Shown here: positions 9,913 through 59,254 of the stretch, one piece after another
Layout of the letters: every line of letters starts with the position of its first letter
Numbering within the stretch: the stretch's first letter is position 1
Source: Thermodesulfobacteriaceae bacterium
GTDB lineage: Bacteria > Desulfobacterota > Thermodesulfobacteria > Thermodesulfobacteriales > Thermodesulfobacteriaceae
NCBI GenBank assembly: GCA_025062245.1
Contig: JANXAD010000002.1
Location: 1-64,000, forward strand
Length of the DNA stretch: 64,000 bases
Reading direction: 5' to 3'
Program-made: the position numbers and the translations under genes
Notes under the pieces: generated by a model
What the model was told of the DNA's origin: nothing
Database searches by the model: none
Seen by the model: only the letters and a program-made list of their open reading frames with translations

Positions 9913-10009
9913 AAGGAGGACCAAATACCGCCTGCTGGGGTTGGTCCTTCCTTATTAAAAGGCGGAATATAAATACCCCAGCCTGAACTGTGTGAAAAGC
10001 ATAGTTCAG
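9913..10009 (+). ncRNA. Candidate structured RNA / 5' leader element upstream of ribH
   Basis: Near-perfect helix AAGGAGGACCAA/TTGGTCCTTCCTT; loop segments CCGCCT and CTGGGG complementary to downstream AGGCGG and CCCCAG; 10-bp hairpin CTGAACTGTG/CATAGTTCAG. Confidence 0.55.
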
Positions 10010-10029
10010 TAAGGGAATAAAAAGGTTCT

Positions 10030-10500
10030 ATGAAATATTTAATATTAGAAGGTTTTTATGAAGGAGAGGGATTTAGATTTGGAATAGTGGTAAGTAGATT
10101 TAATGTTTTCATAACTCAGAGACTTTTAGAGGGTGCTTTAGATGTATTGAAGAGGCATAGGGTTTCTGAAGAGAATATTTGCATTGTGTGGGTGCCAGGG
10201 GCCTTTGAAATACCTTTGGTAGCTAAGAAACTGGCTGAAACTAAAAATTTTGATGCGATTTTATGTTTAGGAGCTATCATAAGAGGGGCTACTCCTCATT
10301 TTGAATATGTAGCTTCTGAGGCTTCTAAAGGAATTGCTCAAGTTATGTTAGAAACAGGAGTCCCTGTGATTTTTGGTATTCTTACCACCGATACTATTGA
10401 ACAGGCTATTGAAAGAGCAGGAACTAAGGCAGGAAATAAAGGAGCAGAAGCAGCTTTGGCTGCCTTAGAAATGGTAAATCTTTTGAAAAAATTGGTTTAA
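10030..10500 (+). CDS. ribH: 6,7-dimethyl-8-ribityllumazine synthase
   Basis: [51 protein letters not shown]. Confidence 0.96.
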
Positions 10501-59162: not shown

Positions 59163-59254
59163 CGGAGGAGGAGGGATTTGAACCCCCGGAAGGAGCTTAA
59201 CACTCCTTCAGCCGATTTCGAGTCGGCCCCCTTCGACCACTCGGGCACTCCTCC
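59163..59254 (-). tRNA. tRNA-Ser (anticodon CGA)
   Basis: Reverse complement GGAGGAGTGCCCGAGTGGTCGAAGGGGGCCGACTCGAAATCGGC...GGGGGTTCAAATCCCTCCTCCTCCG: 7-bp acceptor, anticodon loop CTCGAAA, long variable arm, T-arm. CCA not encoded. Confidence 0.95.

Follow-up and report, generated by a model that had tools for sequence, protein, structure and literature searches.

Organization of the ribH leader

The window, that is the whole 64,000-nucleotide stretch of DNA analysed, carries a structured RNA element between an ORF for a small coiled-coil-like protein and ribH. A preliminary description had indicated a hairpin whose loop is complementary to two downstream segments, and a sequence check of the window copy located each of these segments in place. 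The parts of the locus are the following.

9914..9922, + strand: P1, 5' strand (AGGAGGACC), pairing with 9943..9952; two-sided changes at 9/9 pairs, 97.4% paired (n = 84)
9928..9932, + strand: helix b, 5' strand (CCGCC), within the P1 loop; 100% paired, two pairs with two-sided changes
9934..9940, + strand: helix c, 5' strand (GCTGGGG), within the P1 loop; 97.9% paired, two-sided changes at 6/7 pairs
9943..9952, + strand: P1, 3' strand (GGTCC-T-TCCT, one bulged T); from folding, the alignment and a compensatory change in the sister species
9961..9965, + strand: helix b, 3' strand (GGCGG); from the covariation alignment
9968..9975, + strand: A-rich linker (TATAAATA) with near-invariant A.AAATA bases; from invariant columns in 38 solo copies
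9976..9982, + strand: helix c, 3' strand (CCCCAGC); from the covariation alignment
9983..10009, + strand: P4 hairpin with a 10-bp stem and a 7-nt loop; from folding, no gap after helix c
10010..10029, + strand: spacer with AAGG (10022-10025), a probable Shine-Dalgarno sequence; by inspection
10030..10500, + strand: ribH, 6,7-dimethyl-8-ribityllumazine synthase, the downstream gene; TIGR00114, E = 7.8e-59

P1 closes a loop of 20 nt and its base might be extended by a further 1-3 bp. At the P4 position the homologues, read by eye, show a hairpin of other sequence. P4 is not followed by a T-run, and the element lies in sense orientation directly before the start region; the standalone sRNA that had been among the first proposals is therefore unlikely. 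At 9914-9919 the P1 5' strand reads AGGAGG, resembling a Shine-Dalgarno sequence or the IS607 target motif and buried in the helix; this may be due to chance, as other solo copies do not have it.

Fold and covariation

When the window stretch was compared with dinucleotide shuffles, folding returned a z value of -4.8 and none of 200 shuffles was as good. Covariation was evaluated on an alignment (A4) of 84 related elements, which had been aligned to a model containing P1 but neither helix b nor helix c. Within this alignment 98.2% of the pair cells were paired, 17 of the 21 pairs showed two-sided changes, and the covariation score was 0.581; shuffles gave 0.151, and slid partners did not exceed 0.136. 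The RNA is thus a real, compact and pseudoknotted structure, and the covariation in relatives that had been suggested as a check is present.

Helix b is nearly invariant, yet the changes it does show are compensatory (C-G to G-C in seven sequences and C-G to U-A in one). Of the CCGCCT/AGGCGG pairing originally described, the CCGCC/GGCGG part therefore stands, whereas the U9933-A9960 pair is not general, because many homologues have an A at the first position. The CTGGGG/CCCCAG helix was confirmed and is lengthened to 7 bp by the additional pair G9934-C9982; UA, CG, GC and AU types all occur at one pair of this helix c. The order of the strands, a b c a' b' c', implies three mutually crossing helices. 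As all three co-vary in the same molecules, P1, b and c coexist, so that of the two readings initially offered the compact pseudoknot holds and mutually exclusive states are not needed. P1 and helix c make up an H-type pseudoknot, both loops of which are tied together by helix b.

The window was also searched with cmscan against the 4227 families of Rfam 15, FMN riboswitch and known ribozymes included, and no family matched this RNA at its gathering score, in agreement with the previous statement that it is not an FMN (RFN) riboswitch. Homologues and copies linked to insertion sequences (see below) gave no Rfam match either, the best sub-threshold hits of all these searches appearing chance-like. 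The sole Rfam match within the window was a tRNA gene (59163-59254, - strand).

Distribution among thermophiles and placement before genes

The genome under study holds a single copy of the element. In the sister species a copy 87% identical occurs at the same place, with a compensatory A-T to C-G change in P1. With R1, a covariance model of the core, clear copies were detected in 9 of the order's 43 genomes (own genome and weak noise-like matches not counted); across the phylum, 18 of 396 genomes had matches at E < 0.001, the four weakest being doubtful. When 85,462 species genomes were scanned with a pattern, at least 119 stretches were obtained; of the 80 stretches listed, about 74 reach at least 39 bits with R1, and nearly all of them apparently come from thermophiles. 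The element recurs in Thermodesulfobacteriota, Aquificota, Thermoanaerobacter and relatives, with a scattered, lineage-specific spread and 14-19 copies in each of several genomes. Viral carriers were considered and discarded, the three pattern matches in IMG/VR appearing chance-like by eye. The open-access literature yielded no paper on this RNA or its placement, and the accessible text of a published Aquificales ncRNA list (PMC4227106) names no such motif.

The element usually lies just upstream of a start codon; the genes concerned are unrelated and for the most part have housekeeping functions. In half of the solo copies the start codon follows 27-39 nt past the model end. These genes include rpoA, atpA, fusA, infC, ftsZ, hfq, rpmF, rpsT, tatA, lysA, hisI, metG, pgm and ribH, named by sequence reading or mechanical ORF choice except for ribH, which was identified by profile match, and they share no common pathway. 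Because the same RNA precedes such unrelated genes, a metabolite riboswitch tied to ribH, as had been envisaged at first, is unlikely. Regulation specific to ribH was likewise rejected, as the other readable ribH loci of the genus contain no element and unrelated genes follow it elsewhere.

In 26 of 83 solo copies a -10-like box begins 10-19 nt upstream of P1, compared with 9-16 of 83 in three windows further upstream and 0 of 42 in IS-linked copies. Since these boxes peak just before P1, some of the solo copies probably stand right at the beginning of the mRNA. At the window copy there is no clear -10 box.

Association with IS607 TnpB guide RNAs

Inspection of the homologous loci revealed tnpB upstream of 42 of 151 copies. 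The TnpB-family identity was assigned by TIGR01765 (2.6e-25 for one copy) and also by TIGR01766, the general TnpB model remaining below its cut-off. At several loci tnpB is preceded by a serine-recombinase ORF corresponding to the IS607 transposase (NF033518, 7.6e-37); an assignment to IS605-type elements was therefore dropped in favour of IS607.

In the IS-linked copies the motif belongs to the guide RNA of the right end, where it is located between a hairpin with a CYUGG loop (P0) and the guide-adjacent CCAGG, to which the P0 loop is complementary. The complete order of the right end is P0 hairpin, module, P4 and UAACCAGG. Of 49 IS-linked copies, 41 have P0 with its CYUGG loop and 39 have both P0 and CCAGG, while P0 occurs in none of 83 solos. 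R1 detects both the window copy and the IS-linked copies at E < 1e-9 or better, and the module is thus shared between them. The preliminary description was right about a pseudoknotted RNA outside Rfam; the link to IS607 TnpB guide RNAs is not visible from a single window.

The insertion sites were examined by joining the flanks of 14 insertions, which mostly reconstituted GGAGG-spacer-ATG. This is in line with the IS607 crossover at GG described in the accessible text of PMC10711439 and with the IS607 TnpB TAM, AGGAG, given in that of PMC11061315. IS607/TnpB elements are therefore inserted within Shine-Dalgarno sequences (loci L303, L309, L312, L121, L148, L150, L151 and L153 among others), and their right end brings a new AGG.

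Two TIGR01765 TnpB right ends (L234 and L236, in genomes G020 and G078) possess P0 and UAACCAGG without the P1-b-c module. The module is therefore separable from the guide RNA, and it may be a later insert rather than part of an old core. The Aquificaceae genome G435 contains 21 TIGR01765 matches and only 3 module copies.

Solo copies and selection in the absence of TnpB

The window copy shares with the reRNAs the scaffold module (P1, b, c, P4). It has neither P0 hairpin nor CCAGG, and hence no guide-adjacent pairing with a hairpin loop; there is no tnpB directly upstream and no transposon remnant, and the spacer 10010..10029 stands where IS-linked copies have the GGUAACCAGG transposon end. 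The genome (G000) returned no TIGR01765 and no TIGR01766 match, although, being 93% complete, it may hold a missed tnpB. Taken together, these findings make a working guide RNA at this locus unlikely. Within the order TIGR01765 was detected in G001 and G020 and in no other genome, and TIGR01766 was absent from most solo genomes tested, with two partial matches in G006; as genomes are partly incomplete, this absence is not absolute. About 18 solos (L283-L299) occur in the Aquificaceae genome G436, in which neither TIGR01765 nor TIGR01766 gave a match.

Selection was assessed on 38 solos from genomes without detected TIGR01765. P1 identity has fallen to 39%, yet 305 of 317 P1 cells (96%) pair. 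Helix b is 95% identical, columns 13, 14, 85, 87, 88, 90 and 91 are invariant and column 89 varies once, columns 85 and 87-91 belonging to the A-rich linker. The drift of P1 with retained pairing, together with the fixed loop bases, demonstrates that the solos have been under selection after, or independently of, TnpB.

Comparison with known RNA families

The closest published counterpart is the ISXfa1-type IS607 reRNA (omegaRNA). According to the accessible text of PMC10711439, it too lies at the tnpB 3' end adjoining the IS607 transposase, ends at a GG boundary followed by host flank, and forms a pseudoknot between a hairpin loop and a guide-adjacent segment, which the IS-linked copies are able to form as well. 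Unlike this reRNA, the IS-linked copies contain the extra module of three crossing helices, and the window copy consists of the module alone, with neither tnpB nor guide-adjacent pseudoknot. RAGATH-18, associated with IS607 TnpB as in ISFba1, is described in the accessible part of PMC11061315 as a conserved RNA occurring near TnpB and also without the gene nearby, as here, and its AGGAG TAM resembles the Shine-Dalgarno flanks of the present IS-linked copies. These, however, differ from it in sequence and have no RAGATH-18 cmscan match. The accessible text of the two papers (PMC10711439, PMC11061315) does not describe IS607 reRNAs as gene leaders.

Among leader RNAs of known function, our element shares several features with the H-type pseudoknots. 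The preQ1 and SAM-II riboswitches are leaders of this type, in which a hairpin loop pairs downstream, with an A-rich loop and a location near the Shine-Dalgarno sequence. The present element has the same kind of knot, A-rich loop and closeness to the Shine-Dalgarno sequence, but differs in the extra loop-loop helix b, in its lack of a coherent gene set and in having no Rfam match.

Origin and possible role of the element

On balance, we favour the view that the window element is a solo copy of the P1-b-c-P4 module, which otherwise forms a segment of the guide RNA (reRNA/omegaRNA) at the right end of thermophile IS607 TnpB elements, and that it has been retained as a structured cis-acting 5' leader. 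IS607 elements of this kind insert at the GG of the Shine-Dalgarno sequence of a gene, and the right end therefore becomes the leader of that gene. At ribH, where transposase, tnpB and the guide-specific half (CYUGG-loop hairpin and CCAGG) are missing, the segment from P1 to P4 would serve as leader. The most likely mode of action is in cis: located at the mRNA 5' end or close to it, the rigid knot may keep the ribosome-binding site open and/or shield that end from decay. Given the placement before genes, an effect on translation initiation or on the stability of the 5' end seems likelier than the sensing of a metabolite. A more specific proposal, which we regard as possible though clearly less probable, is that the element represents a new leader class of thermophiles with three crossing helices, present in IS607 TnpB guide RNAs and also functioning by itself as a structured 5' end on up to about 18 unrelated mRNAs per genome, whose near-invariant loops are bound by a specific trans factor or ligand.

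The most serious alternative, to which we assign roughly one chance in a few, is an independent host leader RNA of thermophiles, a broad protein- or ligand-binding regulator captured by IS607 right ends so that insertion into a Shine-Dalgarno sequence does little harm. In Aquificota and in the order of the window genome, solos are indeed more numerous than IS-linked copies; the many copies of G436 coexist with no TnpB match, selection persists without TnpB and the module is missing from some TnpB right ends. Evidence pointing in the opposite direction, from transposon to solo, comes from three intermediates (L114, L327 and L330) in which tnpB is gone and P0 decayed or decaying around an intact module, and from Caldicoprobacter solos, which resemble the co-resident IS copies in P1; the genes served, moreover, have no pathway in common. 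Of the two directions, a passage from transposon to host leader appears the more likely.

A new self-cleaving ribozyme or metabolite riboswitch appears improbable. The compact multi-pseudoknot fold and near-invariant loop bases would suit either, and a conserved, covarying, aptamer-like fold in a 5' leader is indeed what a riboswitch displays; the missing Rfam match, extending to the known ribozymes, and the incoherent set of downstream genes argue against them. The helix order of HDV also differs from that of the element.

Even less credit is due to the solo as an active trans guide RNA for TnpB or a Cas12-like protein, with the ribH start region as its guide. The solo does hold the position of the guide-RNA scaffold relative to the downstream sequence, and 36% of RAGATH-18 RNAs are reported, in the accessible text of PMC11061315, not to lie next to TnpB. 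Against this, the window genome has no detected TIGR01765/TIGR01766 protein, and the known reRNAs, as presented in the accessible text of PMC10711439 and PMC11061315, need the guide-adjacent pseudoknot whose P0 partner is present in none of the 83 solos. A functionless dead transposon scar would fit the scattered, lineage-specific occurrence and is equally implausible, since without TnpB the P1 pairing survives near-complete sequence drift and the loop bases stay fixed.

If the module does derive from IS607 guide RNAs, a transposon guide-RNA module has outlasted its nuclease and is maintained by selection in the leaders of housekeeping genes, and the evolution of TnpB guide RNAs is tied to host gene expression. 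Such an origin would also explain why these elements sit at Shine-Dalgarno sites, where the GGAGG flank is similar to the AGGAG TAM in the accessible text of PMC11061315. The element would represent a compact, heat-stable RNA knot outside Rfam, the function of which is open to reporter tests. G436, whose solos precede genes such as era, rpsT, tatA, rpmF, ftsZ, hfq and rseP, offers a good place to study it.
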